From Ecytonucleospora hepatopenaei (lineage: Eukaryota > Microsporidia > Enterocytozoonidae): 64,000 nucleotides of DNA. A model generated the notes under the pieces. That model did not search any database. It had not been told where the DNA came from and saw nothing but the letters and a program-made list of their open reading frames with translations. The stretch spans positions 62,001-126,000 of the forward strand of contig JAPMUG010000005.1 of NCBI GenBank assembly GCA_026692725.1, read 5' to 3'. The position numbers and the translations under genes were made by a program. Position 1 is the first letter of the stretch. Every line of letters starts with the position of its first letter. Shown here in pieces: positions 26,961 to 62,711 of the stretch.

Positions 26961-27095
26961 TATAAATTATAAACTAACTAACTGTAAATATATTTATATA
27001 TTTATATAATATAAACTATAATATAATATAATATAAACTATAATATAATATTATTATATAATTATTTATATGGGTTATTATTTTTTATTTTTTTA

Positions 27096-29333: not shown

Positions 29334-29490
29334 ATAATAGTATAATATAATAGTATAATATAATAGTATAATATAATAGTATAATAGTATAAACTAATAT
29401 AATATAATATAATATGTAACTATTTAATATTAAATATCAAAAATAATTGGGTATAAAAATATTTTTAATATTAATAACTATATTAATATT

Positions 29491-32497: not shown

Positions 32498-32855
32498 TTG
32501 TTTGAAAAAAAATTGATTTATATATTTTAGATTAAAAATAAAAATATTAATCAAATAGAATTTAATTTAGATATACTTTATAAATAAAAATAAAAATAAA
32601 AAATTAAAATTAAATGACTGATAAATAGTTTGTTTTTTGTTTACTAACAATATTTTTAGTGATTAGTACTGATAAAATTTAAGTTTTTTATATTTGGTAG
32701 ATTAAATTAAATATATTTATATATTAAAATATATATACATAATAATAAACTATTTATATTTTAATATAACCTTATTTGAAATTTAAATTAATGTTGCTAT
32801 TTATAATGTTTTTATATTATTTTTAAGAAAAAAGATAAAAAATATTTACATGAGT
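32498..32855. other. A/T-rich spacer
   Basis: About 360 bp of AT-rich sequence between two family A genes. No RNA gene, repeat array or ORF of note. Confidence 0.5.
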
Positions 32856-33590
32856 TTATTCAGTTTTGTTGTTTTTTCTTCTGTTTCTTCTTTTCTTTTT
32901 ATCTGCTTTTCTTTCATCTTCTTCCTTTTTTCTTTTGATTTTCTCCTCTTTCTTCCTTTTCCTCTTCTCTTCTTTTTCTGAATATAATGTGTATTTGTCA
33001 TGTCCTTTTCTAAATACCCTTTTGCGTTTTTTGTGTTTTTCTCGTGCTTTTTCTCTTTCTTCTTCTTCTTTTGCTTCTTTTAGACTTTTTAAAAATTCTA
33101 AACCTTCTTTCAATTCTTCTGCATTTATACCACTAAACTTTTCTTGTGCAAATTCTTCTGCAAACTCTTTAAACTCATACTTTCTTCCTTTTCTTCTTAC
33201 CTTTACTACCTTTTTAAAGAATTTTAGCAAATTAGATGCCACTGAAACTATCGGTTTTTCAGGATTGTATGTGCACATAAGTTCTTCTTGTTCTTCAGAG
33301 TTTAAATTTGGATTTTTTACTCCCATACAATTGTGAAAACAGGAGTCAAATAGATATGCAGATAAATCCTTCAACTCAGAATAGGGTGCTTTTTTTGGTT
33401 TATCATCAGGATTAGATTCAGCTGCATTTCCTGTGTTATCTTTATTTTCATCTTCTTCTGTGATTATATCATTTAAAAAATTATATGCGTCATTAACAGC
33501 CTCTAATTTTTCTGCAACACTGCCCATGTTTTCTCCTAAATTGGAAAATGCACATTTTATTACAGATAAAATTGATGGAATTAAAATCAT
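32856..33590 (-). CDS. Family A predicted secreted protein, copy 2 (shorter)
   Basis: The 244-residue protein begins MILIPSILSVIKCAF, a clear short signal peptide. It carries the family domain in diverged form (LKDLSAYLFDSCFHNCMGVK, CTYNPEKPIVSVASNLL, and ELKEGLEFLKSLKEAKEEEE). The last 80 residues are almost entirely Lys, Arg and Glu and end KKKRRNRRKNNKTE. Compared with copies 1 and 3 the coiled coil is shorter and lacks the heptad-rich middle. A TCCCT motif precedes the ATG. It sits between family A copy 1 and family B copy 1. Confidence 0.7.
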   Translation of the reverse strand: MILIPSILSVIKCAFSNLGENMGSVAEKLEAVNDAYNFLNDIITEEDENKDNTGNAAESNPDDKPKKAPYSELKDLSAYLFDSCFHNCMGVKNPNLNSEEQEELMCTYNPEKPIVSVASNLLKFFKKVVKVRRKGRKYEFKEFAEEFAQEKFSGINAEELKEGLEFLKSLKEAKEEEEREKAREKHKKRKRVFRKGHDKYTLYSEKEEKRKRKKEEKIKRKKEEDERKADKKKRRNRRKNNKTE

Positions 33591-33787
33591 AAGGGATTAT
33601 TTGATTGTTTTGTTTATTTATGATCAAAACAAATAATAAATAGTTCTTAATCAGAAAGAGTTTACTTAATTAATAATAAGATCTAATTGTTTCAAAAGAC
33701 AATTTAAATTTCATTCAATCTTTTTGATGTTTTTATTTATTAATTAAAAACAAAATCAATATCTTACTGATAAATAAAAATAAATTA

Positions 33788-35068
33788 TCAAGCATTGATA
33801 TTTTCAACAAATTTTTTGTTATGGATAATTACCATTGGGTTGATATGTTTATCAAAATTATCTTCTTTGTTTAAACTGTTATCTTCTTGTGTATTTTTTA
33901 TACTTTTAATTTTTTTATTTTCTTCATCTTCGTAAATTCTTTTCCTTCTTAAATTTTCTACTTCCTGCATAGTTAGTGGTTTTCTATCAGGTCCGCATAT
34001 TACACTCGTTCTTTTTAAACTTTCAGGAACTTCAGGTTGAACTAATGATAAATAGAGATTGGTGGTATTTTTACTGTGAAATTGCTTCATTTTAAATTCT
34101 GAATGCACCAAATCTTTGTATTTCATGCAATCCGTAGTGGGTAAATAAATTTTTCTAAGATTATATCTGTTAAAAAGCATTTCAATTGAACGTTTTTTTA
34201 AATTATAAGGAATGTTTTTTGCAGCCAAATGCCATTCATAATAAGTTACATTGTAAAAAGCTTTTGTTCTTTTATTTCGTTCATATATAAAAGGAACACC
34301 GCATGTTAATCTTCTTCTGTCATTTTCTGTAATAAAATCTTTTTCAATTTGATTAAAAAAGTGTGTTGCTGTCCAATTAAAAGTAAAACATTCCTTTACC
34401 ATTTCCATTTCCTCTTCGTCCGTAATAAATAGCATGATTGTGTCCAGAAAATACATAACAAGCCTATTTATAAAGAAATCAAGTGCAAAAAGTTTTTTTA
34501 AGCACATCGCGGTTATCTCCTCCTTGTAAAGCTCTAAACAAAAATTATGAAATTTATTTGCTGTGTAAATTGTACTTATAGCACAAAATTTCATTACGTT
34601 AATTGCATAAAGAAATATTTCCCTTTAATTTTCAAATTTTGCGTCTTTTTTAAGGTGTATAAACTTTTCATTTAAATGGAAATCACCTGTTTTTAAGCTT
34701 TTTTTACAAAATAGTGAAAAATAGTTTTTTAGTTCATAATTTAAAAGCTTTTTCAAATTTGAATGTAAACTGTAATGACGGAATGAACAAATATAAATAG
34801 ATGGCAAGTGGTACGTAATAAAAATGCTATTTAATTCTTTTCCATGATTTTTAACAAAGTTATTTTCTGATAACTCACTCAAAAAAGTAAAATAAAAATC
34901 AGAAATTAATTTTTTTATACATTTATCACTTAATATTTCTTTAAACTTAATAAAATATTTGTGCTCCTCAATATATTCGTTTTGTAATATAATTTCATTA
35001 TCAAAGTTTTCTTCTTTGTAGGTTAAAGAGCATTTTATAATTTTAAAAATAAATAACCTTAAAAACAT
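33788..35068 (-). pseudogene. Family B predicted secreted protein, copy 1, with an in-frame TAA
   Basis: Two frames in the same register (35068-34625 and 34594-33788) are separated by a single TAA at 34625-34627; the ten codons between that stop and the next ATG are open. Aligned with the intact copy at 35226-36533, the two parts are continuous: signal peptide MFLRLFIFKIIKCS, N-terminal helical part, then MKFCAISTIYTANKFHNF, ALDFFINRLVMYFLDTIMLF, CFTFNWTATHFFNQI and PFIYERN. The conserved TSVICGPDRKPLTMQEV block near the C-terminus is also present. The copy is therefore either a young pseudogene, a sequencing artefact, or read through. The C-terminus differs from copy 2, being Lys/Glu-rich instead of carrying the SUMO-interaction-like tail. 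Confidence 0.75.
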
Positions 35069-35225
35069 AAAACAAGGTTAAAATTTAATCAAATATTTTT
35101 ATATATTATTTATATTAAGAATACAATGTTATATGAAATACTAAAATAAAAATATTTATTAAATAATACTTAATAGGGTTACAATAAAATAAATAAATCA
35201 TATATTTTATTCAATATTTTTTTAT

Positions 35226-36533
35226 TTAATCTTCTACATTTATTGATGAAGAACTTGATGATGTTCCAACTACATCAATTTCTTCTGAATCATCTGAAAT
35301 TTCTATTACTGCAACTGCAGCCCTTTTTGCAGGTGGTTCTCCATCTGGTTGTCTTTGACCTGATGTACCCGGTCTATCAAAATCTGATACTTCTTGCATG
35401 GTTAATTGTCTTTGTCCAGGTCCATGTATTACACTTGGTCTGGTAGTTTGCTGCTGAACTGGTTGATGTTCTTGGACTGTTTGTTGCTGCTGAACTGGTT
35501 GTGAACCAAAAAACCGTCTTACAATGGCTAGTTGTTTTTGTTGTTTTCTTCTTTCGAATTCTGCTGCCACTAGACCCCTATATCTCATACAATTTTGTAT
35601 AGTAATGTCCACTGTTTTAAAATTGTATTTTGTAAAAAAAAGTTGTAAAGAATTTTTTCTAATTAACGCTGGATGTTTTGTAAAATTGTTTTGCCATTCT
35701 GAAAATGCAACATTATAGAATACAGAAGAACGTGTATTTCTTTCATATATAAAAGGAATGTTGCAACTCAATCTAAATTTCTCACTGTCTATATTAAACT
35801 CATTGTTAATTTTAGTAAAAAAACTTGTTGCTGTCCAATTGAAATTAAAGCATTCTTTTACCATTGCCATTTGTTGTTCATTTTTAGTAAACAGCATAAT
35901 TGTGTCCAAAAAATATAAGACAAATCTGTTTAAGAAGAAATCAAGTCCAACTATTAAGTCAAAATGTTCTTGTAAATTATCATCAGTAAAATTTGCAAGA
36001 CAAAATTGGTGGTATTTATGTGCAGTAAATAAAATTTTCATAAATGAAATTTTCATTAAACTAAAATTAAATAAATGTTGATCTTCTAATTCTGCAAAAA
36101 CAATTTCATTACTAATTGAAAAATTAGATTTTCCCATGTAAAAATCATCTATAAAAGTAAGACCCATTCTTAATTTAGGTAACATATGTTTTAAATAATT
36201 GTTGAAATGTAGTTTAAAAGGTCGTAAAATAAAAAATAAATTGTACGCGCAATTTGACATGAAAATCGGATTAAAATTTACAAAGTTCATGTTAAGCTCA
36301 TTCCCAAGCTCTTTTTTTAAAGCATTTTCCGAAGTTTTGTTAAATAAATCTCTGTATATTGTGATTAATGATTGCCTTTGCGGACCATTGTCATTTAAAA
36401 TTTCTCTTATTTTATTATAATATGTTTCTTCTTTAGTAAAATCTTCCTGTAGTTTTTCTTGATCTGTAAAATCTTCTTCTGTATAATTTGATGCACATTT
36501 TATAATTTTAGATAACAATAAAGTAAACAACAT
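35226..36533 (-). CDS. Family B predicted secreted protein, copy 2 (intact)
   Basis: The 435-residue protein begins with a textbook short signal peptide (MLFTLLLSKIIKCAS). Residues 16-330 are alpha-helical, with the family blocks MKILFTAHKYHQFCL, GLDFFLNRFVLYFLDTIMLF, CFNFNWTATSFFTKI and PFIYERNTRSSVFYNVAFSEW. A Gln-rich linker (about 340-372) leads to RPSVIHGPGQRQLTMQEV, then PPAKRAAVAVIEISDDSEEI and a Ser-rich end. The VIEISDDSEE segment (hydrophobic core followed by acidic residues) resembles a SUMO-interaction motif, and PPAKR is a minimal basic patch. No known family is recognised. It is the reference copy for two broken relatives at 33788 and 40670. Confidence 0.8.
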   Translation of the reverse strand: MLFTLLLSKIIKCASNYTEEDFTDQEKLQEDFTKEETYYNKIREILNDNGPQRQSLITIYRDLFNKTSENALKKELGNELNMNFVNFNPIFMSNCAYNLFFILRPFKLHFNNYLKHMLPKLRMGLTFIDDFYMGKSNFSISNEIVFAELEDQHLFNFSLMKISFMKILFTAHKYHQFCLANFTDDNLQEHFDLIVGLDFFLNRFVLYFLDTIMLFTKNEQQMAMVKECFNFNWTATSFFTKINNEFNIDSEKFRLSCNIPFIYERNTRSSVFYNVAFSEWQNNFTKHPALIRKNSLQLFFTKYNFKTVDITIQNCMRYRGLVAAEFERRKQQKQLAIVRRFFGSQPVQQQQTVQEHQPVQQQTTRPSVIHGPGQRQLTMQEVSDFDRPGTSGQRQPDGEPPAKRAAVAVIEISDDSEEIDVVGTSSSSSSINVED

Positions 36534-37028
36534 TTTTATTAAAGGAATATTTAATTAAATTTAAAATTTAATAAATTTAATAAATTTAATAAATTAACTA
36601 AAAAGGATTTTGATAGGTTTATTTTAATTTTTTAATAAAAAGTTGTTAAATATGAAGTAAATTTATATTATATAAACATAATGTAAAAGATAATGAATCT
36701 GCTTTTCAAATATGTTTAATTTTTCTTGATTTTTAAACTTTAATTAAACTAAGTAATTTGTTACCAACATGTATGTATAATTTATATGTAATGTTTTTAT
36801 TTAATATGTAATATCTGTTAAACATCTATTTTAAGTTTATATATCCTATGTTAGTGTTTAATAAATAAAATACAAATTATATTTTAATTATTTTATTTTG
36901 ATGCTACGGTAAAACAAACATGTTTTGGTAAAAAATAATGTAAAAATATAACAAGAATCAATTTTTAAAAACCTTTTTAATTTCAACACAAAAAGTGTTA
37001 GAATGATTTTGTATGCTTATACATGAGT
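36534..37028. other. A/T-rich spacer, about 500 bp
   Basis: No ORF, tRNA-like or repeat structure apart from a TTTAATAAATTTAATAAA short repeat near 36565-36595, next to the family B start. Confidence 0.5.
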
Positions 37029-37967
37029 TTATTTATTTTTTTGTTTCCTGACTCTTTTTTGTTTCTTTTTACCTCGTCCTTTTCTTTCATTCTTTTCTTT
37101 TTCTGAATTTGACCCACTATTATCTGACGTTTCAATACTTTCTGCCAATATTTTTAACTTTTCCTTTAATTTTTTGGCTTGTTTTTCTTTTATTTCAATT
37201 TCCAGTGTTTCTAAATCTATTTTCTTCATTTCTAAATTCATTCTTTTTTCTTCACTTTCTGATTCGCGTTTTTTTATTCTTTCTTTTATTTTTAATGTTC
37301 TTTCTTCTCTATCTAATTTTTCATTTTCTGCCTCTATTTTTCTTTTTTCTAACTCATACATTTCTTTTTTTAACTCTATATAACTCGTTTGTAATAATTC
37401 TAATCCTTCTTTTACTAAATCTGTATTCACATCTTTGAATCTTTTTTTTAAATATTCGTCCGCTCTTTCTTCAAAATCTTGTGTTTTCCTTTCTTTATTT
37501 GCCTCTGAACATTTCTTAGATAAATTTGTACAACAAGTGAACATTGATACGATTGGATTTTTTATGTTTAAATTGCAATCTATCAAAATCATTTCTTCGT
37601 CTGATATATTGCGGTTTCTGACATTACAGCAATTATAACAGAATGAATTAGCAAAATATCGCCATAAATCTGAGATAAATGAATATTTTTTAGTTCTTTC
37701 TTCTTCTTTTTCTATTCCTAACACAAGATTATTTATAAATGTTAATGCACTTTTTATAGATTTTTCCTCTATAGTTTCATATTCACCATCAACCTTATCA
37801 AAACATAAATTTTTTGTGTTTTGTTCATTTTTTTGTGTAGAACTGCTAGAAGGTTGTTCAGTAATGACTTTATTCTCTTCAGCACCTTTTACAAATTTAT
37901 TTTGTTTATAGATTACATGATTTAAAAATACATGATTGAATAAGATATTGCTAATCAAAGATAACAT
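37029..37967 (-). CDS. Family A predicted secreted coiled-coil protein, copy 3
   Basis: The 312-residue protein starts with a hydrophobic leader (MLSLISNILFNHVFL) and, like copy 1, has a TEQPSSSS element near residue 38. The family domain follows (FISDLWRYFANSFCYNCCNVR, NIKNPIVSMFTCCTNLSKKC), then DLVKEGLELLQTSYIELKKE, a long charged coiled coil (about residues 180-270) and a basic tail (RGKKKQKRVRKQKNK). It is closer to copy 1 than to copy 2. The spacing pattern A-A-B-B-A suggests local duplication of secreted-protein genes. Confidence 0.75.
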   Translation of the reverse strand: MLSLISNILFNHVFLNHVIYKQNKFVKGAEENKVITEQPSSSSTQKNEQNTKNLCFDKVDGEYETIEEKSIKSALTFINNLVLGIEKEEERTKKYSFISDLWRYFANSFCYNCCNVRNRNISDEEMILIDCNLNIKNPIVSMFTCCTNLSKKCSEANKERKTQDFEERADEYLKKRFKDVNTDLVKEGLELLQTSYIELKKEMYELEKRKIEAENEKLDREERTLKIKERIKKRESESEEKRMNLEMKKIDLETLEIEIKEKQAKKLKEKLKILAESIETSDNSGSNSEKEKNERKGRGKKKQKRVRKQKNK

Positions 37968-38839
37968 TATCTTAGGAAAAATTTTTTGTTTATATATTAC
38001 AAAAAATAAATAAATAATAAATATTGATCAAATGAAAATTTTTTAAGATTTGCAAAAAAGCATATAACTCTGAATATTATCTAATATGATAATAAACATT
38101 TTTGTGTTTTGTTTTTTTGTTTGTAAACAAAATTTTACTGATAAAGATTGTATAAAACAGGTTTTCCGAACTAAAAATTTTATTTTATATTTTTATTTAA
38201 TAAATAAGTAAAGACACTGAATATAAACAAAATAATTCTCTATTTGGATATCTAGACATTGACTAGTACTTGAAACTAAATAATTTAATGTAAACAAACA
38301 CAATATGCGAATAATACCAAGCTTAAAAATATTTTAAAAACTAAATTTTATTTCTTGTTTTGATATCGTGATAAATAGGGCAACCGCAAAATATCAGGAT
38401 TTTTATTTATTTAAAGAAAGTATAAAGGTATTATAAACACAAATAGATAATAAAATACTATTAAAAATATGTTTAAAAGATTTATTTGATTGCTCTTTCT
38501 ATTGTGCACAACACAATTATAAAAATTAATATTATCATTTGTTTATTTATTTAAGCATAAATTAAAACTATTCAAACGTTCTAAAGTTTAAAACGATCTT
38601 TAAACTATAAGTAAATCTTATATATCAAAAGTTATTATATATTCAAAAAACTGAAAGCTAAACCTAAAAAAAATCAAAACCAATGATATTAATTAACTTA
38701 GTTTTTTATTTTAGTAACAATACAAATTTTTTAGCACATTATGACTCATTTGATCCCTTAATTAAAATTTTTGTCCAAAATGTGTTGGAGAGTATAAAAA
38801 TTTGAATAATAACCTTTTAACTTATAAACATGTCTTTTT
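37968..38839. other. Gene-free AT-rich stretch
   Basis: About 870 bp left of the transposon relic. I see no ORF, RNA gene or tandem array. It may contain decayed sequence, but nothing I can identify. Confidence 0.5.
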
Positions 38840-38848
38840 TATCAAAAA

Positions 38849-38863
38849 GTGTCAACAAAAAAT
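38849..38863 (+). repeat. Left terminal inverted repeat of the Tc1 relic
   Basis: GTGTCAACAAAAAAT is the exact reverse complement of 39957-39971 at the other end. Confidence 0.9.
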
Positions 38864-38939
38864 GTGACAGTTTTAGTAAAATTTTATTTAATACTTTTTA
38901 TGATGTTCTTTTGCCTCATACAGGGCCAATACTCTTTTT

Positions 38940-39914
38940 TCATTGACCTGACGAGTTTTTGGCACGTTTCAGGTGTGATCTTATACCACTCAACCTAAAC
39001 TTTTATTCATAAATGATCGTCATTTTTGCAATAAACCTACCAATATAGCTCTTGACAATGCCCCATAGATTCTCAATTGGGTTCATATCAGGGGATTGGG
39101 ATGACCATTTGAGTGTCTCAAACTCGCATCTCGTCAGGAACACCTTAAAACAGGCCACTAGTGTGTTTTGGGTCATTATCTTGCTGAAAGATTGGATCAG
39201 AAATTTTTAATTTCTCGATCGATTATTCCAGGTTATTTTGTAGATTTGACAAGTACTGTTTGGAATCCATTTTTCTGCCAATTCTTACAATGCTCCCTAT
39301 GCCTTGAGATGAAAAGTAGTCAACCCCATATCTTGCCTTTGTTGAATTTTACCATACCATTCGGGATCTCTAGTTTGAGGCGTTCACCAAGCTTCCTGCG
39401 AACCCTCTTAGTTCCAGAACCGTTAACCGTTTTGAACGGGCACTCCTCGCTCCAGATGTCCCTTTCTCAATCCTTATCAGGAGCAAACATCCAGGTCTTT
39501 GCCATTTCGAATTGTTTTTTGCGTTATCAAGTTTAAAGTAAGGTTTTTCGCACTTATTGAAAATACCAATCTCTATTTCGAGCTATTGGTTTGTCACTGT
39601 GCTACACAATACCTTTTTCTAAAACTCGTTCGGTTCCTTGTTGGTCAATTTTTTATTATTAAAATTCTCTTTTGATTTCAAAAGTTTGATAATTTGGTCT
39701 TTTTGAGCCTTCATACAGTCGTTTAAGTTCCAGTACTTAGTTTTAAGCCTGTTTGATCGGTCTTTTGATACCGTTCCAGGATCCTCTGGGCGTTTGACTT
39801 GCTTGCCCTAGTTACTTTAACGATTTTCCGACCAGACATATTAAGCTCTTTGTAGGCATTATTTTTGCCTTTTAACAGTTCAGTAATATGTTTAGAAATT
39901 GGATAAAAAGACAA
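38940..39914 (-). pseudogene. Tc1-type transposase, decayed
   Basis: Read on the minus strand, the N-terminal part has a helix-turn-helix-like segment with SNAQRILERYQKT. Later, in different frames, come QQDNDPKHTS (the second catalytic Asp region) and SQSPDMNPIENLWG (the catalytic Glu region), both classic Tc1 signatures. The first catalytic region reads WSEEC instead of the usual WSDE. Several stops and frame changes intervene, so no active enzyme can be made. The sequence is an inactive copy. Confidence 0.9.
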
Positions 39915-39956
39915 ACAAATAATTGATTAATTAAAACACTTTAACCAGCGTTTCCT

Positions 39957-39971
39957 ATTTTTTGTTGACAC
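39957..39971 (-). repeat. Right terminal inverted repeat of the Tc1 relic
   Basis: It is the reverse complement of 38849-38863. A TA dinucleotide follows a few bases outside. Confidence 0.9.
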
Positions 39972-40076
39972 TACTGTATGGTTTTAGATTTAAAAGAAGA
40001 CTTTTGGAGTGCAATGTACATTTGATATTCCAGTTAATGCTAAATAATCATTATTTTCCCTTAAAAAATTGTCTTA

Positions 40077-40350
40077 TTAACCTTTTTCTTTACCATCATT
40101 ATTATCTGCTTGTTTTTTAGTTTTAAGTTGGACTAAATAGCCTTTTAATGTAGCCTTTTTAGGCAAGAAAAATGGTTTGTGCAAATTTGAAAATTTCTTG
40201 CGTAAGGTACTACCACTTTTTTAACTTTTGAAAAAAACTGTTGCTTTGATGGTTTTTAATTCATTAGATATTTTTAATACTCCCTTTTTTGTGATAAGCA
40301 ATGTCTTTGCCTTTTGTGAATTAACTTGTATGTTTTGGCATAAAAAGGTT
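40077..40350 (-). pseudogene. Possible gene remnant of unknown origin
   Basis: One minus-strand frame reads as complex protein-like sequence with only one internal stop, a TAA at 40221-40223. Upstream of it is QKAKTLLITKKGVLKISNEL and downstream HKPFFLPKKATLKGYLVQLK, ending in a Lys/Asp-rich tail and a TAA at 40077-40079. The sequence looks basic, like a nucleic-acid-binding or ribosomal protein piece, but I cannot assign it. No start codon is obvious. The short ORF just upstream (40357-40656) is in another frame and may or may not belong to it. Confidence 0.3.
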
Positions 40351-40669
40351 ATAAAATTAGTTGTTTATTAAATTTGAAAGAAGAAAATCATTTCTTTTGA
40401 TTTTTTTATTGATAATTTTGACTAAATAATATTTTAAACAAAGATATATTAAAACAATTTGTTTTAATACATAGGGAGAAAGGCACAGTGTCATGTCAAA
40501 AAGTATGTTTTTAAAACAAAACAAACCTTGGGCATTTAGGACGTCCAAATTTTTGTTGATACTTATGTAATTAAACATTATTCTGTATCTTATGTTTAAA
40601 ATAATTACGTGAATAAATTTAATCATTATACTTTTAGTGTTTAAATTTAAAAACAATGTAATGATTTAT

Positions 40670-41953
40670 TTAATCTTCTACATTTATTGATGAAGAACTT
40701 GATGATGCCTTAGCTGCATCAATTTCTTCTGAATCATTTGAGATTACTGCAACTGCAGTCCTTTTTGCAGGTGGTTCTCCATCTGGTTGTCTTTGACCTG
40801 ATGTGCTTGGTCTATCTAAATCTGATACTTCTTGCATAGTCAATGGTCTTTTTCCAGGTCTATGTATTACGCTTGGTCTAGTCGTTTGATGTTGAACTGG
40901 TTGATGTTCTTGGACTGTTTGTGGTATGCCTTCATCACTTCCAACCGCAGCAGCCTGTTCCTTTTGTCGTTTTCTTCTTTCATATTCTGCTACTACCAAA
41001 TCTTTATAGAACACACAATTTGGAATTGTAATGTCTACTACTTTAAAAGTATATTCTGTAAAAAAATTAAAAATAGATGTTGTTTTATTGGATCTAATTA
41101 AAGTTGCTAAATGTTGTCTCCATTCTGTATATATCAAATCAAAAAAAGCATTAGAATGTGTGTTTCGTTGTTTTATAAAAGGAATCATTGCAATTTAACC
41201 TGTTAGAATCATTATCTAATCTGAATTCGTTGTTTATTTTTGTAAAAAAATATGTGGCTGTCCAGTTGAAACTAAAGCATTGTTTTACCATTGCCATTTG
41301 TTCTTCATTTTCAATATACAGCATTATTGTGTCTAAAAAATACAAAACAAGTCTATTTAGTAAGAAATCGACAGAAAATAAATGGCGAATGTTTTTATAA
41401 TTAGGATATTGTTTATATACCTTCAAACAAAGTTCATGATATTTATAAGCAAAAAATATTATGTTTAAAGTCGAATATTTCATAAAACTCAAGTTGATTT
41501 ATTGAATTTTTCTATGTCTTCTAACTTATAAATGTTTATGTCAATTGTTTTTTGTCGTAAAAAGAAAGTTTCAAATATAAAACCAGGTATATTATATTCA
41601 TAAATAAATTTCTTTAACTCTCTTTTAAATACTACTTTTAATTGTGAGTGTAAATTGTGCAGTCTTCTTGCAGAGTTTTCTGTTGATAGTTTGTCAAAAC
41701 TTATAAAATTATTGTTTAATAGTTTATTTTCTTCTTTTGAGTGTGTAAATTTTTCTAAAGATGTAAATAAATTGTTATATCTTTCTTTTATTTGACCTTT
41801 TTGTGTTTCATCGGTTAATATTTCTCTTATTTTACTAAAATACTCTTGTTCTTTAAGATATTCTTCTTGTAGTTTTTTTTCATCCATATAATCTTCATCC
41901 GTATAATTTGATGCACATTTTATAATTTTAGATAACAATAAAGTAAAAAACAT
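40670..41953 (-). pseudogene. Family B predicted secreted protein, copy 3, with two frameshifts
   Basis: Three minus-strand pieces (41953-41489, 41492-41151 and 41188-40670) align in order with the intact family B protein at 35226. The start is the ATG at 41953, giving MFFTLLLSKIIKC, almost identical to the intact signal peptide. The frame changes once near 41492, where the family sequence continues as SFMKYSTLN, and again near 41170, at a one-base gain just before PFIKQRNTH. The C-terminal part keeps RPSVIHRPGKRPLTMQEV and PPAKRTAVAVISNDSEEI, so the SUMO-interaction-like core has partly lost its shape. The copy is disrupted unless both shifts are sequencing errors. Confidence 0.85.
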
Positions 41954-42066
41954 TTTAGAAAGCAAATTAAATTTTATTTATAAAAAGGAACATGTTTTTT
42001 ATTATACTTATGGTATTAAATATTAAAAATAAATTAATTTTTTTAATGATAAAAATGCTTTTAAAA

Positions 42067-54348: not shown

Positions 54349-54879
54349 AATTTTATTGTTTTTGTAAAATACATCTTTAGCATAGATATATTTGTAACAT
54401 TTCTAAATACAATAAATAAATAAATTTTAAAAGACTCATTAAACTAAGAAGCTTTTTAAATATAAAGAACTTTTGATAAATTTTCTTTAAGAAAACTTAT
54501 TTAACAAGATTTTTTACAACTAAAAATTTGGGTCAAATAAAAAATATTTCACCCCCAGGTAAAAATTTTTTTAACTGACATTTTACAAAGAAGAAAATTT
54601 TTTACTTGATTTAAAAAAAAACAATTTTGAAAATTGCAAATTTAACGATTTAAAAATATATAAAAACTAAAGTTTAGATACAATTGATTACAATCGATGT
54701 GTTTTAAACAATTTTAATTCTAATTAAATACCGAATATATCATAAAAATACAATATCAACATATTTGTATCAAATTTTTTGATTAAAAATCATTAAAATT
54801 TTAAATATTATTTTACAAGAGGGAAATTTTTTTATTTGACCCAAAAATTTATATAAATACAAATTTATTGATAAAATAA

Positions 54880-55265
54880 TAAAAACATATAAATACATGA
54901 TTAATCTTATTTTTTTAAATGCAATAAACCAAACCCAAAGAAAAATAAAAAAACACTATGCGACTAAGAATAATGAATAAATTTGTATATATGATAAAAA
55001 ATTTGTTTATTGCAAAAGCTAGAATGATGTTTTTTATAGAATTTTTTGTGAAAATTTAGTAATGAATAAATTTGTATAAATACTAAGACTACTCAGTTTA
55101 TAAATTATAAAAACAATCTGCGGATTTCATCTTGCCTTGGAATCGTTATATACAAACTCACAAAAAATTTTTACAAAATACAAAAATGCTGAAGTGCTTT
55201 GGTCAAAGGCCCTAATTTTAAATTGCGTGTAAAGAAAGCGTTGCTCATGGACCTAAAACCAGTCC
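54880..55265 (-). repeat. Repeat R, copy D (minus), interrupted by element S
   Basis: On the minus strand it aligns with copies at 57330-57570 and 60360-60480: the CCTTTGACC block, GTGAGTTTGT, the GATTCCAAGGCAAGATGAAA block and TGCGG. The repeat is split at 54970-55081 by a copy of element S with a 7-bp duplication of ACTAAGA. Confidence 0.75.
54970..55081 (+). mobile_element. Element S, 112-bp insertion with 7-bp target duplication
   Basis: The insertion is flanked by ACTAAGA at 54963-54969 and at 55082-55088. Copy A of repeat R (reverse complement near 57475) has a single uninterrupted GACTAAGACTACT, an empty site. The element begins ATAATGAATAAATTTG and ends TAATGAATAAATTTGTATAAAT, so it carries direct repeats at its ends, with TTTGTTTATTGCAAAAGC and ATGATGTTTTTTATAGA in the middle. 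It has no coding capacity. Confidence 0.8.
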
Positions 55266-55764
55266 GTAAATAAAAACAACCAGCTTCCTAAATTTTTAAA
55301 TATACTTTATTTATTAACGCAAAATTTTATAGATTTATTAATATTTGTTTTACGTTGTTTTAATATTAGTGTAATAAATTTATAAGTTTTTTATTAGTTG
55401 TTATCATTTTTAAAAAAGTTTTTACAAGTGATTTTTATAAATTGTTAATAAATGTGTATCTAAAGATATACAATTCTTTTATTCAAATAATAGATGGTAG
55501 ATTATTTAAAAAATTTTATTTTAATTTAAAAAATATTACAATGTTATGAAAATTTATAAAGTTTTTTAATATATTTATATAATTTTTAGCATAAATTATA
55601 AACTACTATCAAAAAAACATAATAAAACTTAAAAAATTAGTCTTTTTGAAAAATTTTTAATTTTAAAAAGTCTGTTAAACAAAAACAAAATTTTAAAGAA
55701 AAATTTTTTTAAGAAGTTTTTTATAAAAAAACACAAAAATATTTTGTTAAAAAAATAATATATA

Positions 55765-55892
55765 GAGTTTTCCGATCTAGTTCGTCTTTTTCCCGATCAA
55801 TTTCGTTTTTTCCCTATCAATTTTGACATTTCCCGATCAAGTTCGTTTTTGTCCCCAACAATTTCGTTTTTGTCCCTATCAATTTCATTTTT
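55765..55892 (+). repeat. Left subterminal 21-bp tandem array of foldback element 1
   Basis: About six imperfect units of TTTTTCCCGATCAATTTCGT type. Variants replace CCCGATC by CCCTATC or CCCAACA. No spacers are present between units. Confidence 0.85.
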
Positions 55893-56019
55893 TTATTTCA
55901 GAAAATTGTTAACCCATGGTTTTTGATAAGGTTTCAAACGATATTAAAAACAATTTAAGTATTGATTTAAACAATAATACTACTACTAATATGTTTAAAA
56001 ATAACCACGTGTTTTTCTT

Positions 56020-56115
56020 GATTTTTTATCATAAGGGTTTGTTTATTGCAAAAGTTAACATGATGTTTTTTATATAATTTTCTGTGAGCATTTTAGCAAT
56101 TAATAAATTTATTTT
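56020..56115 (+). repeat. Element S copy inside foldback element 1
   Basis: TTTGTTTATTGCAAAAGTTA, then ATGATGTTTTTTATATAATT, then CTGTGAGCATTTTAG and AATAAATTTATTTT align with element S at 54970. Confidence 0.75.
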
Positions 56116-56134
56116 TTTTCTTTTATTTTTTTGA

Positions 56135-56198
56135 AAACGAAATTGATCGGGAAAAAGACGAAATTGATCGGAAAAAAACGAACTAAATCGGAAAACTC
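56135..56198 (-). repeat. Right subterminal array of foldback element 1
   Basis: About three units in inverted orientation (ACGAAATTGATCGGGAAAAA), shorter than the left array. Confidence 0.85.
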
Positions 56199-56534
56199 TA
56201 AAATCAAATTTAATATAGTTGAAATTACTGAACATAAAAAAACAAATAAATAAATAGTTTAATTTAAAAATCTTTATTTAAAAACAAGAATATTTTAAAT
56301 ATGTTTTTGAAAAAAGTTATAGCATAAATTTTTATAAAAATAATAAATATATAAAGCATTTATTTCGAATAGTGAAAAAACTATTTTTTATTAACTAAAA
56401 AAATAAAAGAGTATTTTTTTTCTTTAAAATTTTTATTAAAAGTAAAACAATTGTACTTAAATGAATTTTTTACAAATTTTTTAGAATGCAAAAAAACAAG
56501 CACTAAATGAATAATTTTTTATTTTTTTACTTTT

Positions 56535-56645
56535 ATTTGATTTTTTTATCCTAAGGGCTTGTTTATTGCAAAAGCTAGAATGATGTTTTTATAGAATTTT
56601 CTGTAAGTAATTTAGTATTAAAAAACTTTGTGTATATATATACTT
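56535..56645 (+). repeat. Element S copy
   Basis: Preceded by TCCTAAGGGC, then the TTGTTTATTGCAAAAGCTAG and ATGATGTTTTTATAGAATTT core. Its end is diverged (AAAAACTTTGTGTATATATA). Confidence 0.75.
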
Positions 56646-56869
56646 TTATTTGTTTTTACAACAAAAAATAACCTAAAAGTTTGTTTAATATTATATTTTT
56701 TAATTAAAAACAAAAAAAAACAACTTTTTAATATAAAAGAAATAGTTATTTTTAAAAAATTTTACAAAATAAAATTAAAAAATTGTTTTTAATTTTTATT
56801 GACCTTCATTAATGAAAAAAATTTTTTTGAGTTTTTGTAAACAAAAATGAAAAATGTAAAAAAAAGTTT

Positions 56870-57570
56870 TTCTGTTCATTATAAAAACATCCCGCATGAG
56901 TAAAAATTTTTTAGAGCTCGTTAGAACATTTGAATAATGTGTAGGAGGGCAAGAACCATATGGCCAAGCCAAAAATGGTAAAGACGAGATGGTAACACCC
57001 GCTAATAGATCTCTGGTAACAAGATTATGTTTGTAGCAGTAAGCTACATTTGTAAAACAGTGTATATTTTTATATACGTTTGTATGTGCCGCAGAACGAA
57101 CGACTTCTTTTACTATTAACATTTATTAACAATTTTTAAAAATTTTTTAAATTTTTAATTTATTATTTAATAACATGTCTAACAAAAAGGAAAAAAATCT
57201 TAAAAATTTATACAAAAGATTAAAAAGCTTTTAAAAAATGGTAAAAATTGTTAAAAGCTTTTAACCAAGGGGGTTGATTCTGTGGTTTGGATGGTTAAAA
57301 GCTCCATAAGCAGCGCCCCCTTCACACACGGCTTGAAATTAAAGCCTTTGACCGAAGCATTTCGGCATTAGTGTATTTTAAATAGATTGATGTGAGTTTG
57401 TGTATGGTGATCCCAAGACTTCATGAAAGCTGCAGGTTGTTTTTGTAATTTGTAAATTAGTAGTCTTAGTCGCATAGTGCGTTTTTTTAATTTCCTAAGG
57501 GCTTGGTTTATTGCATTTAAAATATAAGGTTAAACATGTATTTATATGTCTTGTTATTTTATGAATAAAT
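56870..57570 (+). repeat. Repeat R, copy A (longest copy)
   Basis: The copy is relatively GC-rich at its left (56895-57110), where it contains AGAGCTCGTTAGAACATTTG and TAATAGATCTCTGGTAACAA. It then shares ATGTCTAACAAAAAGGAAAA with copy C, and from about 57320 ACACACGGCTTGAAATTAAA, CCTTTGACCGAAGCATTTCG and GGTGATCCCAAGACTTCATG with B, D and others. It ends GCATAGTGCGTTTTTTTAAT. Two hairpin-forming stretches (57330-57346 and 57352-57365) lie in it. A minus-strand frame of 108 codons at 56796-57122 is probably chance. Confidence 0.75.
57330..57365 (+). other. Two adjacent hairpins conserved in repeat R
   Basis: GGCTTGAAATTAAAGCC folds as GGCTT/AAGCC, and CCGAAGCATTTCGG folds as CCGAAG/TTTCGG with a G-T pair. 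In copy B (60377-60393 and 60399-60412) both persist, with the G-T pair becoming G-C. Confidence 0.55.
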
Positions 57571-58114
57571 TTGTTTATATATAAACTTATAACAAAAAAA
57601 ATAGAAAACAAAAAGAACTTTTTAAAATGTCTATTATATCTTTATTTTTATTTTTAGATTTTAAGAATTGATTAACACCTTCCAAAAAATAAAGCCAAGG
57701 TCCCCAGAAGAGTCCAAAGGAAACGGGAGGCAAAGCTGTTCAGATTTTGGTAATGTAGGTCAAAAGCCCATATACAAGCACAACTGGTTTAAAGTAAATT
57801 AGTTGAGAAAAAGTGTCCAGCGTGTGGTGAAATATTTAATTATTGAAAGATGTAAAAAATTATATTTTAAGTAAACAACAAGTTTTCATGCAAAGAGAAG
57901 GAAAAAAAATTTTATAAGTATATTAATATAAAGTTTTTATTGTGTACTAAAAAGAGATGATTTGTTTAGATAAATTCTAAACATTACTTTCAACACGACT
58001 AAAAATTTAATTTTTAAACCGACGAATTTTAGCATTTTATTAAGTTTAAAATAATGTGTATTTGTGTAAAGTAGTTTAAAAGCAAAAATAAAACTGCAAG
58101 TTATTTTTTATTTT

Positions 58115-58205
58115 AAAAACTTGTTTAATGCATAAACAAGTTTGCTGTTTCTATAAAAGTTTATGTGAGTAGCTCAGTATTGAATAAACATGTAAATTTA
58201 TAATA
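58115..58205 (+). repeat. Diverged element S copy
   Basis: The order ATGCATAAACAAG, TGTTTCTATAAAAGTTTA, TGTGAGTAGCTCAGTATT and GAATAAACATGTAAATTTAT follows element S but with many changes. Confidence 0.55.
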
Positions 58206-58759
58206 AAAAATTAAAAATTAATGTTTTTTATTAAATTTTTAAATACTAAAGAGGAAAAAAATCTTAAAATTGTTTATCTATATAAATGTAGGTGTATTGA
58301 TCTTTAATTTTTTTATTAAAAAACATTTTTTTATACAAAAACTTTTAAAAAATAGAGTTTAATAAAAAAAAATATTAAAAACTAATAAACTTGTTATGTT
58401 TAAAACTTATGTTTTTTAAGCAAAAAAAAATTATAAGCTTAAAAAAAAACTATGCCACTAAATTTTTATGTCTTTTACAAAAAAATTTAAATGTTATTTG
58501 ATATTAATGCTATTTAAAAAACATTTCAAATACAAAAAATAAAATTTTTAAATTTTCAGTTCTAAAAAATTTTAATAAAACTGTTTTACTTTTTAAAAAC
58601 AAATAAAAAGTTTAAAGAGAATTTGAAAAAAATTAATTAGAAAAGAAAAAAGTTTAATTTTAAAGAGTAAATTTTCTCAAGAACAAAAAACATATATATA
58701 AATGTTTTTTTTATATATAAAAAATAATTTATTTTTAATTTCAAGAAATAGATTTTTGT

Positions 58760-59010
58760 TTTAACACAATTTTTTTATGTAATAAATTAAACTATGCTAA
58801 ATTAAAAAAACGCACTATGCAACTATCACCATATTTTTTAAAAAACAAACTGCATTTCAATCTCGTCCTGGTATTAACATTCACAACTTACATTAATTAT
58901 ACAAAATGAACAAATACCAAAAAACGTCGTTCAAAGGTCTTAATTTTAAACTGTGTGTAAATCAGACGATACTTTTGTGGCTCTGAACAATCCAAATAAA
59001 ATCAACCCTC
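58760..59010 (-). repeat. Repeat R, copy E (minus)
   Basis: On the minus strand it carries the R blocks in diverged form: ACGCACTATGC (copy A end), GAGATTGAAATGCAG and the CCTTTGA block. The hairpins seen in copies A and B are lost. Confidence 0.65.
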
Positions 59011-59544
59011 TCGGTTATATTTTTTAAAAAATATAACTCTAAAAAACTTTTTTTAATTTTTTTACGTATTTTTTATAATGGTATAAAAAAATTTTAAAAT
59101 TTTAAAAGTTTTTTATTATATTTTTGTTTTAAGTTTTTGCATTAATTTGTTTATTTTGTTTTTTTACTGATAATAAAAAATTTTTAAAAAATTAAAATGA
59201 AAGTAAAACAAAAATTTTTTAAAAAAGTAAACATTTTCTTAAACTAAACGCTTGTAAAATAAGATATTGTGTTTTTTGTTTATTTTCTTTTATTTTGTTA
59301 AAAAAAATTTATAAATTTTTTTACAGTTTTAAATAAATGTTTAAATGTTTTAAATATTTTTAAGTATACTTTTATTTGTATTTTTTAAACACAAATAGTT
59401 ACTATTTCAAAATAAGAGTTTTTAAAAAAAAGTTGTAACAGTAAACAATTTTTTTTTCAAATTAAAAGTATCTTTTTCAAATGCTTTATAATTTTTATAT
59501 ATACAAATGTATTTATTAAAAATTAAGAGCATGTTGTTGTATGT

Positions 59545-59780
59545 TTAACTTTATATTTAAAATACAAAAAAAAATTAAACCCCAAGAAAAAAAATAAACG
59601 GATTATGCGTTTAATACTACTTTATTTACAAATTACAAAAACAACCAGCGGATCTTATTCTCCATAGAAATCATTATAGACAAACTCACGAAAATTTATA
59701 CAAAATACAATAATGACAAAAACAATGGTCAAAAACTTTACTTTCAAGTCTTGTTTTATGCTTTCTATCTATTTTAAATG
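59545..59780 (-). repeat. Repeat R, copy F (minus)
   Basis: Diverged R copy ending just left of foldback element 2, with TTTACAAATTACAAAAACAA, CCAGCGGATC and AGACAAACTCACGAAAAT as shared blocks. Confidence 0.65.
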
Positions 59781-59838
59781 TTATTGCAAACTTCTAAAAA
59801 ATTTTTATTTATGCGCAAGTGTCAGTAAAAATTATATA

Positions 59839-59965
59839 GAGTTTTCCGATCTAGTTGGTCTTTTTCCCAATCAATTTGGTTTTTTTCCCAATCAATTTGG
59901 TTTTTTTCCCGATCAATTTGGTCTTTTTCCCAATCAATTTGGTTTTTTTCCCGATCAATTTGGTC
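59839..59965 (+). repeat. Left subterminal 21-bp array of foldback element 2
   Basis: About five near-identical units with CCCAATC or CCCGATC alternation, all with the TTTGG variant. Confidence 0.9.
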
Positions 59966-60054
59966 CATAAAATAAAATTTAAAAAATTTATTTGATTGTA
60001 AAAATAAAAATTTATAAAAATGTAAAACTAAAAAAATTTATTCCCAAATTTCTG

Positions 60055-60490
60055 TTCTGCCTCCCGCCAGAATAAAAATTTTCATGAGCTCGTGCAAACA
60101 TAAGAATAAAACAAAGGGAAGAAATAGATGGTGTTAAGTGTGAATTATGAAGATTTATAGGATAATACGACAGAGGTCTAAAGGAAATTTATTTTTGAAT
60201 GTTTACTGGCGATTTACTGCTAGCTGAAAAATTTAATTTTTACAATGAAGTATTTTTTACAAAGAGGGGGGCAAAGGGGTACTTGTGAGGCATATTCTAA
60301 AAACCTCTTAAGCAGGTGATTTCTTAAGGGGTGTTTGTTATAACTAATCTTATTTCACAAACAATTTAACACACAAGGCTTGAAATTAAAGCCTTTGACC
60401 GAAGCACTTCGACATTATTGTATTTTATAGAATAGTGTGAGTTTGTGTATGGTGATCCCAAGGCGGGATGAAAGCCGCAGGTTTTTTTCT
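60055..60490 (+). repeat. Repeat R, copy B, inside foldback element 2
   Basis: It begins with GCCAGAATAAAAATTTTCAT and AGCTCGTGCAAACAT (as copy A) and ends with GGTGATCCCAAGGCGGGATG, AAAGCCGCAGG. ATCCC and GGGAT in this last block can pair. The distal GCATAGTGCG end of copy A is missing. Confidence 0.75.
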
Positions 60491-60499
60491 TGATTTTTT

Positions 60500-60597
60500 T
60501 ATCCTAAGGGCTTGTTTATTGCAAAAACTAGAATGATGTTTTTTATAGAATTTTCTGTGAGTAGCTTAGTAATGAATAAATTTGTATATATATATTA
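60500..60597 (+). repeat. Element S copy inside foldback element 2
   Basis: TTGTTTATTGCAAAAACTAG, ATGATGTTTTTTATAGAATT, CTGTGAGTAGCTTAG and AATGAATAAATTTGTATATA match S closely. Confidence 0.85.
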
Positions 60598-60702
60598 GTA
60601 TTATTAGCATTAGTATTGCTTGAAGCGCTTTCATTTTTATTTTTAAAACCTGAAAACATGGGGGTATTTTTTAAAATAAAATTTTTATTTAAAAATATTT
60701 AA

Positions 60703-60789
60703 AAGACCAAATTGATCGGGAAAAAAACCAAATTGATTTGGAAAAAGACCAAATTGATCGGGAAAAAGACCAACTAGATCGGAAAACTC
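60703..60789 (-). repeat. Right subterminal array of foldback element 2
   Basis: Inverted units (ACCAAATTGATCGGGAAAAA) ending in the perfect 16-bp tip. Confidence 0.9.
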
Positions 60790-60895
60790 ATATATATACA
60801 AATTCATTTATTGCTAAATTACTCACAAAAAGTTTTATAAAAACATCATTTTTGGTTTTGCAATAAACAAGCTCTTATGATAAAAAAATAAAAAT
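60788..60895 (-). repeat. Element S copy in minus orientation, abutting foldback element 2
   Basis: TATATACAAATTCATTTATT, ACTCACAAAAAGTTTTATAA and TTTTGCAATAAACAAGCTC are S in reverse complement. It starts at the very right tip of foldback element 2. Confidence 0.8.
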
Positions 60896-61839
60896 TTGGT
60901 TTTTATACTTCTTTATTTTTATTATAATACACAAACGCACACTATTTTATAATATACAATTAAAAAATTTTGTTAAAAGGTTTAGATTGCTAGCTGTTTG
61001 TTAGGGTGTTTGTAGAAAAAATTTATTTATTTAAACATCCTAAAAGCGTACTTGCTTAAAAATTTTAGTAAAATGCATCACAATTCTTTTTTATTATTTT
61101 TTGGTTTACTTCAATTTAAAATAGAAATTTTTAAGCTAAAAGTATAATGCCAGTAATCACTTTAAAAAAAATCTTTGATAACTTTTAAATAAATTTTTTA
61201 AAATTTTTTGTAATTCACACTTTATACTATTTTTTGAACTTTTTTTTGTAAAACTTTTAAAAAATAAGTTCTTATTGGTAAAAAATTTTTTTAAATAAAT
61301 TAAAAAACATTGATAACTACAATAAAAATTGGGATGAAATTTTTCCCCATACACCATCAAGTCCGAAAATTTTTCCCTTTACAAAAACAAGCTAACCTTT
61401 TAAAAGAAATAATTATACTATAAAAGTATATAAATTGCATTAAAACTTGGTTAAAAATTTAATAAATACAAAAAAATTTTGCCTAACTAAAAAAACAACT
61501 GTCAAGTCTAAAAACTTTTTTTTCTTAAAAACACATGTATGAAAAATTTCATACTTGAAAAAAATTGTTTTAAAAGAAGTTATTTTTAAAGTTTTTGCAT
61601 TTAGGTCATTTGATTTAAGTATAAAAATTTTCCCCCGAAAGAAGGTTTTGCAGTTAATAAAAGTACAAGAAGTATCTTTTTGCACTTGATCCAAAAATTC
61701 TTTTTTAGCTAGTTAACTATTCTTTTTTAAAATTTTTTTACATTGAAAAATTTTTTGCACTTGATACTAGTTTTTATGTAAATTATTTGTTTTTAAAAAA
61801 TTTTAAACACCGTTTTTAAGTAAAAACTAAAAATTTATT

Positions 61840-62290
61840 TTTTTAGAGCTACACGGATAATTTATGTTTTAAAAACGCTATGACATTGAAAAATGTGTGC
61901 TATATTGGCAAAATAGTGTATATTTTATTATACATGCTTTTGTGTCAAAGCACAAGCAATTGTGTTCTATTATAACAACTATTAACAATTTTTATAAAAG
62001 TAATTGAAAATTTTAAAACAAAAATATAAAAAAAATGTCTAACAAAAAAGAAAAAAGTCTTAAAAATTAATATAAGAATTTTAATTTTAAAAAAATGATA
62101 AACAATTTTAACCAATGAGGCTTAGGCTTTAAATTTGGATTGTTAAGAGCCTTATAAACAGTTTCTCCTTCACACACGGCTTTGATATAAAGCTTTTGAC
62201 CATTGTTTTTTGTCAGTATTGTATATTATAGAATAGTATGAGTTTGTGTATGGTGCTCCCAAGAAGAGACGAAAGACGCAGGTTTTTTGT
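61840..62290 (+). repeat. Repeat R, copy C (diverged)
   Basis: Shares TAGAGCTACACGG..., ATGTCTAACAAAAAAGAAAA and CTTAAAAATT with copy A, and CACACGGCTTTGATATAAAG and GTGAGTTTGTGTATGGTGCT-like sequence (TGAGTTTGTGTATGGTGC) with A and B. The GCATAGTGCG end is absent. The hairpins are partly lost. Confidence 0.7.
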
Positions 62291-62294
62291 CTGA

Positions 62295-62395
62295 TTTTTT
62301 TATCCTAAGGGGTTGGGTTGTTTATTGCAAAAGCAAAATGATGTTTTTTATAGAATTTTATGTGAGTAATTAAGTAATGAATAAATTTATATATA
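62295..62395 (+). repeat. Element S copy at the end of R copy C
   Basis: TTGTTTATTGCAAAAGCAAA, ATGATGTTTTTTATAGAATT, TATGTGAGTAATTAAG and AATGAATAAATTTATATATA. It follows the R copy exactly as in foldback element 2, so R and S often travel together. Confidence 0.8.
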
Positions 62396-62685
62396 TAATA
62401 AACAACAGTCGTTAAATATAATTCAATAAGCCAATTAATCAATAATATGTCAAACATTTATATTTTATGTTTTTAAAATTTTAAAATAATAAAAAACAAA
62501 AATCTACATTTTTTTAACCTTAATTTTTCTAAATAACATAAAAAGTTTTGTCGTATCTTTTAATTATATAAAATATTTATACATTAGAAATAGCAAATAA
62601 ATTTTTAGTTGTTAAAAACATAAAATAAAATCTATTATATATTAGTTTTTATATATAATATTATATTTTAAACCACAAGCTTCCT

Positions 62686-62690
62686 ACCCT
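62686..62690 (+). promoter_or_regulatory. ACCCT motif upstream of the tail-anchored gene
   Basis: TACCCTAAG lies about 21 bp before the ATG at 62712 and marks the return from the repeat block to gene sequence. Confidence 0.45.
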
Positions 62691-62711
62691 AAGTTTTAAA
62701 TTTTCACCAAA

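Follow-up and report, generated by a model that had tools for sequence, protein, structure and literature searches.

Why do the two ends of a transposable element carry the same variant, when the corresponding ends of a neighbouring, similar element carry another one? The question is raised by two short elements in a stretch of 64,000 nucleotides from the genome of the shrimp parasite Ecytonucleospora hepatopenaei (contig JAPMUG010000005.1, here C9, positions 62001-126000; the assembly has 13 contigs and 3,094,744 bases). We call this whole stretch the window, and positions without a contig name refer to it. In a first-pass annotation of the window it was claimed that the left and right arrays of one element share private variants, and that this requires homogenisation between the opposite arrays. 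Our analysis leads to a largely ordinary explanation of the pattern: we think, with a probability of roughly 0.92, that the two elements, degraded and non-autonomous, derive from two related families of the Tc1/mariner superfamily, and that their ends match by family. Elements 1 and 2 of the window are also labelled C9a and C9b, the elements elsewhere by contig and start, shortened to the contig where this is unambiguous. Their parts are the following.

55765..56198, plus strand: element 1, putative miniature inverted-repeat transposable element (MITE) copy of the TTCG Tc1/mariner-type family, 434 bp, delimited by its tips and by alignment with C10, C6, C7 and C13
55765..55890, plus strand: element 1, left (5'-side) array of six ~21-bp units, read partly by eye
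55891..56005, plus strand: element 1, leader-like segment (5' region of the C13 transposase element), approximate boundaries
56006..56110, plus strand: 3'-end module of a long interspersed nuclear element (LINE) inside element 1, 84-86% over ~105 nt
56134..56198, minus strand: element 1, right (3'-side) array of three units, read partly by eye
59839..60789, minus strand: element 2, TTGG-family element with an insertion resembling a short interspersed nuclear element (SINE), delimited by its tips and by alignment with both ends of C5:468780-470405
59839..59965, plus strand: element 2, left (3'-side) array of six units, all GG
59966..60057, minus strand: element 2, segment like the C5 transposase element at its 3' end, approximate boundaries
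60060..60598, plus strand: SINE-like repeat R inside element 2, 539 bp, with a ~310-bp head, a ~226-bp tail shared with a LINE and a TA-run end
60599..60700, minus strand: element 2, leader-like segment (5' region of the C5 transposase element), approximate boundaries
60701..60789, minus strand: element 2, right (5'-side) array of four units, all GG
60790..61172, minus strand: degraded inverted copy of R abutting element 2, 69% over 411 nt

Element 1 starts with the tip GAGTTTTCCGATCTAG (55765-55780, plus strand) and ends with its inverted copy at 56183-56198 (minus strand, one mismatch); the tips of element 2 lie at 59839-59854 (plus) and 60774-60789 (minus). The inverted arrays of units of about 20-21 bp are real, as shown by the 97% identity over 89 nt between 59839-59927 and 60701-60789. 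The transposase 5' side corresponds to the left end of element 1 and to the right end of element 2, which on its outer side adjoins the TA tail of the inverted R copy at 60790-61172. As to the variants, the units of element 2, listed by script, have GG in 10 of 10 cases, as the annotation had it, whereas in element 1 (six units listed by script, three by eye) CG is found in 7 of 9, the other two having TG and CA.

When only two copies are seen, it must be asked whether the co-variation of their ends could have arisen by chance in AT-rich, low-complexity DNA, where the elements are few and a single base of the unit is informative. The counts leave almost no room for this explanation, which we regard as practically negligible. 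At up to 2 mismatches the tip occurs four times in the window, always at the two elements, while the mean in shuffled sequence was 0.01. Genome-wide, with the reversed pattern as control, the tip had 11 matches against 0 at up to 1 mismatch, and 18 against 5 at up to 3. The unit consensus had 27 matches in the genome and its reversed control none; all 27, like all 14 matches of a 256-base query from element 1, fall inside elements on C9, C10, C6, C7, C13 and C2.

Tips thus exist outside the locus, on at least six contigs. Besides the two elements of the window, inverted pairs at up to 2 mismatches were found on C6 (95658/96091), C7 (237648/239699), C10 (120933/121382) and C13 (78088/79908). 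The pair on C2 (98075/98817) is more divergent, and so is the left partner, at 146050, of a right tip at C5:146572. Single matches occur at C2:92965, C5:476258 and C12:4297, the last two with 3 mismatches, near the level of the control. Units of the TTCG type are present in C9a, C6, C10, C7 and C13, units of the TTGG type in C9b and C5:468780-470405, which has the tip GGGCTTTTCAATC at both ends. These two sets are our TTCG and TTGG families; the labels were assigned by eye from the interiors and the transposase side. By the same procedure C5:146050-146572 and C2:98075-98817 were put in a third group based on their interiors.

Both elements of the window are non-coding, and the enzyme that, according to the annotation, had to be sought elsewhere was found as degraded Tc1/mariner-type transposase genes between like ends on C13 and C5. 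The C13 element (78088-79908, 1821 bp, TTCG ends) contains its transposase in several broken pieces, one of which matched the Pfam profile DDE_3 with 46.4 bits (cut-off 28.6); a 148-aa transposase fragment from contig C13 is 100% identical to EHP00_1136 of the same species. The UniRef name for the open reading frame (ORF) with a HTH_Tnp_Tc3_2 match begins 'Transposase Tc1-like dom'. The N-terminal part of the transposase of C5:468780-470405 is 52% identical to that of C13 over 134 aa, and its DDE_3 match has 68.3 bits; by coordinates the two parts are in different reading frames. The copies with an internal transposase that the annotation had proposed to look for do exist, although with degraded genes. 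Judged from the profile scores, what lies between the terminal inverted repeats (TIRs) would be a DDE_3-type transposase, as expected for Tc1/mariner.

The flanks point in the same direction. TA was present on both sides in 7 of the 9 two-ended elements (P = 2e-12, with a background TA frequency of 0.114 in the fetched stretches), namely at the left edge in 9/9 and at the right edge in 7/9, and would correspond to a target-site duplication (TSD) of TA or TATA, which is in keeping with Tc1/mariner. These findings also bear on the idea of a self-contained Foldback family that has no transposase kin and spread by replication or recombination of palindromes. The long, inverted, internally repetitive ends and non-coding middles would suit such a family, but transposase genes lie between like ends in C13 and C5, the flanks are TA, and the middles come from the leaders of those genes and from retroposons; we consider it very improbable.

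Several observations weigh against the assignment to two Tc1/mariner-type families. The second DDE_3 piece of C13 scored 24.3 bits, under the Pfam cut-off of 28.6, and the HTH_Tnp_Tc3_2 match in the C13 element (E = 0.0044, 17.7 bits) stayed under its cut-off of 31.5. C10 and element 2 have no TA at the right edge, and TATA being self-complementary, TA and TATA target duplications are indistinguishable. The link of the TTGG ends to a transposase comes solely from C5:468780-470405 and its kinship with element 2. C5:146050-146572 has TTGG at both ends and an interior unlike that of C5:468780-470405, and the units of C2:98075-98817 are mixed. Finally, there was no intact cognate transposase among the 4 N-terminal and 16 DDE_3 matches in the genome. 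Because of this last result mobilisation in trans is something that we only infer, and the TTCG and TTGG families are probably immobile now in this assembly.

Do the two ends of one element match better than expected from their family? Arms were compared in the nine two-ended elements over the first 21 and the first 42 nt, ungapped; in the 42-nt comparison single indels in the 3' arms of C9a and C10 lower the identities. Over 21 nt the mean identity was 0.884 within elements, 0.895 between arms of the same side and family, 0.899 between opposite sides of different elements of one family, and 0.765 between families; the corresponding values over 42 nt were 0.754, 0.785, 0.795 and 0.680. When arms were randomly re-paired over all nine elements, the true partners stood out over 21 nt (P = 0.0011) but not clearly over 42 nt (P = 0.11); taken over all elements, the tips of left and right arrays co-vary. 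When re-pairing was restricted to families, the difference vanished (P = 0.25 and 0.68 for 21 and 42 nt). Two alternative groupings gave similar results: with C5:146050-146572 moved into TTGG the within-family values were P = 0.23 and 0.46, and with the seven TTCG and TTGG elements alone they were 0.50 and 0.49, as compared to 0.026 and 0.10 for re-pairing over all seven. Since re-pairing within families makes no difference, the ends co-vary with family, and no further effect of the element is seen; it must be noted that with nine elements these tests have little power, and a weak within-element effect could escape them.

The claim that an element's own ends are more alike than the same ends of other elements stands for the C/G site and for element 2, but not for element 1 as a whole. 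Ungapped, the first 42 nt of the left arm of element 1 are 93% identical to the left arm of element 2 and 71% to its own right arm, the latter value being lowered by an indel; with gaps allowed, left and right arms of element 1 are 85% identical over 91 nt, whereas the left arm and that of C10 are 96% identical over 89 nt. What had been taken for private variants of an element are marks of the family.

Inheritance of both ends from the family has a rival in homogenisation within the element: gene conversion, snap-back replication or copying via a hairpin would make its opposite arrays alike and in this way create private variants. As a required cause of the C/G pattern homogenisation was rejected after the re-pairing tests, and the first-pass conclusion cannot be upheld in that form: the C/G difference separates groups of elements, and partners are no closer than re-pairs within a family. 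Support for homogenisation comes from particular arms. The arms of element 2 are 98% alike over 42 nt, as opposed to 74% for the two arms of its C5 relative, and the 3' arm of C6 matches the 5' arm of element 1 with 86% identity over 110 nt, without gaps and with the top score (80.0) of the gapped 110-nt arm table, which covers the five TTCG elements only. By eye, this 3' arm also has the 20-nt unit spacing of the element 1 5' arm, and because of this resemblance a 5'-type array probably reached a 3' arm. The low P values of re-pairing over all elements and over the seven (21 nt) would likewise fit homogenisation, but the within-family values in all three groupings, the 42-nt value over all elements and the greater closeness of the element 1 left arm to C10 do not, and the claimed pattern hangs on one base of the unit. 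On balance we find it unlikely that homogenisation made the pattern, even allowing for the low power of the tests. The C6 3' arm and element 2 suggest occasional arm-to-arm copying, and the results imply that in each family the two ends evolve slowly in concert.

Support for the family explanation comes also from other transposon lineages of the genome. Among 11 DDE_3 loci examined, several belong to other lineages with quite different TIRs, which, where a pair was found, are similar at both ends, some of the pairs being weak; an example of such an end is TACAGTAGTGTCAACAAAAAATGGGACAC on C13:6906-8372. Because these lineages carry TIRs of their own that are alike at both ends, co-varying ends are what distinct families show here. 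One further lineage of the Tc1/mariner type may be present in the window at about 38848-39972, where a weak DDE_3 match (17.6 bits) adjoins a different end, AGTGTCAACAAAAAAT.

The course of events that we propose is the following. The TIR consists of the tip and one to six direct copies of the ~21-bp unit, the units presumably serving as binding sites of the transposase. Each family has TIRs of one type, TTCG or TTGG, and a separate transposase, which probably acted in trans on the MITEs; insertion takes place at TA, and mostly at TATA. The ends of a copy would have the same variant because they were inherited from the same family; as both have to be recognised by one enzyme, selection may have favoured a shared binding sequence and kept the ends of a family alike. 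Element 1 would go back to a founder that had a LINE 3' end and little of the transposase gene left, and that was then copied to at least four contigs; element 2 would be a TTGG copy that also holds the SINE-like repeat.

The history of element 1 can be read from its relatives. In element 1, C10 and C6 the segment resembling the C13 leader is followed by the LINE 3' module and then by the right array, and C7 has the same arrangement at the two sides of its extra sequence. Positions 99-227 of the element 1 query matched C13:79762-79892 at 84%. The junction with the LINE module recurs in C10 and C6, and in C7 it is split. Identical aligned columns numbered 398/425 for element 1 and C10, 321/386 for element 1 and C6, and 340/421 for C10 and C6. 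The copies C9a (434 bp), C6 (434 bp) and C10 (450 bp) share one common junction; the C7 copy (2052 bp) has both flanks of this junction and holds longer ORFs. The group is short and non-coding, exists in several copies with the same interior, and has the TIR and TSD of a family, as MITEs do; by these alignments a single MITE founder was copied several times, and element 1 is among the four copies. Of the two longer ORFs in the C7 copy one had a weak match to DUF659 (E = 0.026), the other no Pfam match. DUF659 is linked to hAT, and we infer that the extra sequence of C7 may be a nested hAT-like insertion.

An alignment of nine copies shows that the repeat R inside element 2 has sharp ends; it finishes with a TA tail. 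The terminal ~226 bp of R are 93% identical (over 226 nt) to the sequence that follows a LINE reading frame on C8, a frame open for 472 codons in the stretch examined; RVT_1 was found on C8 in open frames of up to 1277 codons. The ~310-bp head was matched in 14 places, in some of them partially, and its lone match on C8 is a separate, full copy of R. Match counts from the genome searches are lower bounds; in the search that gave the R/LINE-tail matches 40 of 55 candidates were scored. Several of the R/LINE-tail matches are 3'-end fragments. A head of its own, sharp ends, a 3' end that truncated copies have in common and a tail that recurs in a partner LINE make R look like a SINE with a LINE-derived tail. 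Its sharp ends had also raised the thought of a retrotransposon long terminal repeat; this was dropped, as the 3' part equals the stretch downstream of the LINE frame and several 3'-end fragments exist.

It is instructive to compare the elements with known systems. Foldback (FB) of Drosophila and Tm1 (Mutator/Foldback) have inverted, tandemly repetitive termini, and belong to another superfamily and make another target duplication than the elements described here; that of the Drosophila FB family is 9 bp long. With a Tc1/mariner-type transposase and TA flanks, our elements are not members of Drosophila Foldback, and are foldback-like in shape only. A closer parallel is Galileo of Drosophila, which, according to the excerpts of the publication, is also foldback-like with long, internally repetitive TIRs, derives from an ordinary transposon, and has subfamilies defined by TIR sequence as well as chimeric copies (PMC3573991). 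Galileo is a member of the P-element superfamily with 7-bp target duplications (PMC3573991), in contrast to the Tc1/mariner type and TA found here. In microsporidia, Parisot et al. 2014 described Mariner/Tc1 families in several species, and counted Enterocytozoon bieneusi among those in which transposable elements are typically absent (PMC4202319, in excerpt). Those families resemble ours in the DDE_3-type transposase, the TIRs and the TA flanks; ends with arrays of ~21-bp units, as seen here, are not mentioned in the excerpts (PMC4202319). Stowaway-like MITEs of Nosema are similarly short and non-coding, with TIRs and a TA duplication, but their TIRs are given as 5-30 bp, whereas the arms here reach about 125 bp; neither 'tandem' nor 'foldback' appears as a word in the excerpted text on these MITEs (PMC4405373). 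No title devoted to transposons or centromeres of E. hepatopenaei was found among the open-licence papers listed. Our work adds two Tc1/mariner-type families with foldback-like arrayed ends, a parallel to Galileo in another superfamily. This gain is modest; the case also shows how family-specific ends can pass for within-element homogenisation when only two copies are seen.

Both elements lie in a gene-poor part of the window:

54349..62711, no strand: repeat island holding both elements, candidate centromere region

ATG-initiated reading frames of at least 100 codons cover 4% of this island, as compared to 80% of the window outside it. In the genome there were 23 matches at up to 3 mismatches to a 24-bp word from the R/LINE tail (reversed control 0). 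Upon linking over 20 kb they formed 12 clusters, spread over 10 contigs: C5 has three, and C1, C2, C6, C7, C8, C9, C10, C12 and C13 have a single one. Exactly one cluster on nine contigs has P = 0.0011, and no contig except C5 having more than one P = 0.027. Without matches inside array-ended elements 18 matches were left, still in 12 clusters (random mean 16.2, P = 0.0035 for 12 or fewer). Each of the 10 array-ended elements listed, which include a single tip, is within 10 kb of a cluster, and the clusters with these margins make up 8.6% of the genome. Frames cover 0 to 38% of the stretches fetched at the clusters of C1, C2, C5 (all three), C6, C7, C10, C12 and C13 and at the C11 matches, and on C10 the flanking genes were located near 118.28 and 129.17 kb. 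The R matches of C11, at 77 kb, are all more divergent, and C3 and C4 had no R match among the matches listed.

It is tempting to regard the islands, made up of the LINE and its 3' ends, its SINE-like partner R and the array-ended families, as regional centromeres, the array-ended transposons targeting centromeric chromatin or surviving only there. We put this forward tentatively and think it rather doubtful. The island of C8 is not gene-poor where the LINE lies (frame cover 0.24 to 0.64), C5 has three clusters, and only 4 of the 15 DDE_3 loci (the 16 matches, with two neighbouring pieces on C13 counted once) are within 10 kb of a cluster. Single R matches lie outside the islands on C5 (55 and 385 kb), C6 (282 kb), C8 (65 kb), C9 (62 kb), C10 (29 and 138 kb) and C13 (19 kb), and off-island stretches can be equally poor in frames, such as C10:28018-31236 (cover 0.00) and C5:52920-57179 (0.09). 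Moreover, the distances of 20 kb for linking and 10 kb for neighbourhood were picked after seeing the data. Telomere-like TTAGG/TTAGT runs were found close to each end on C10 and C13, but close to a single end on C2, C5, C6, C8 and C11; internal matches lie at C1:19.3 kb and C5:222 kb, the latter being a lone match with 2 mismatches. C5 (811 kb) is the longest contig, and having three clusters and an internal telomere-like match, it could be a fusion or an assembly join.

E. hepatopenaei belongs to Enterocytozoonida. So does Microsporidia sp. MB, for which a study from 2026, available to us in excerpts, placed retroelement-rich, methylated candidate centromeres of high GC content in repeat-rich sections of 30-82 kb (PMC13174016). 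The islands described here are likewise mostly single per contig, repeat-rich and gene-poor; they differ from those candidates (PMC13174016) in being small and AT-rich. In the excerpted part of a survey from 2025, neither GC nor repeat content revealed any centromeric region in the species covered (PMC12449221), thus in these excerpts the two papers disagree on whether microsporidian centromeres can be recognised from sequence. If our suggestion were true, it would provide about a dozen small, AT-rich, sequenced candidate centromere islands in a microsporidian.

The genome contains three H3-type histone genes, L061 (C5:281303), L062 (C5:247670) and L063 (C13:144498), one with a canonical and two with divergent tails; judging by the sequences, either of the latter could be CENP-A. 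The longer loop 1 of one variant was considered as a sign of CENP-A and dropped, as the canonical-tail H3 has a loop of equal length in the alignment. By bits, the best PDB match of this longer-loop variant is 5zbx, an H3.1/CENP-A chimera, and the best PDB matches of the other divergent variant are ordinary H3.

Other transposon relics were seen in the islands: weak DUF659 matches on C7 (L009/L002, 236.1-241.2 kb) and C13 (L007, 80.4-81.1 kb), a weak ISXO2/IS1595-like match at the same place on C7, and, judged by eye, a similar-looking relic at C10:118.5-119.3 kb (L067).

Some further features of the window should be mentioned. An Rfam scan at gathering thresholds gave 5S rRNA as the only match, and ARAGORN with the bacterial code detected no tRNA. 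A Kae1-type protein has several microsporidia among the named relatives in the 120 matches listed. Positions 20237-30312 are occupied by a block of asparagine-rich, low-complexity frames, with GC content falling to 14-16% at 26-30 kb. At 31520-41965 there are frames that by eye resemble two tandem families of species-specific proteins, the first for example at 35226-36533, 41489-41965 and 33788-34594, the second for example at 31520-32554, 32856-33590 and 37029-37967.

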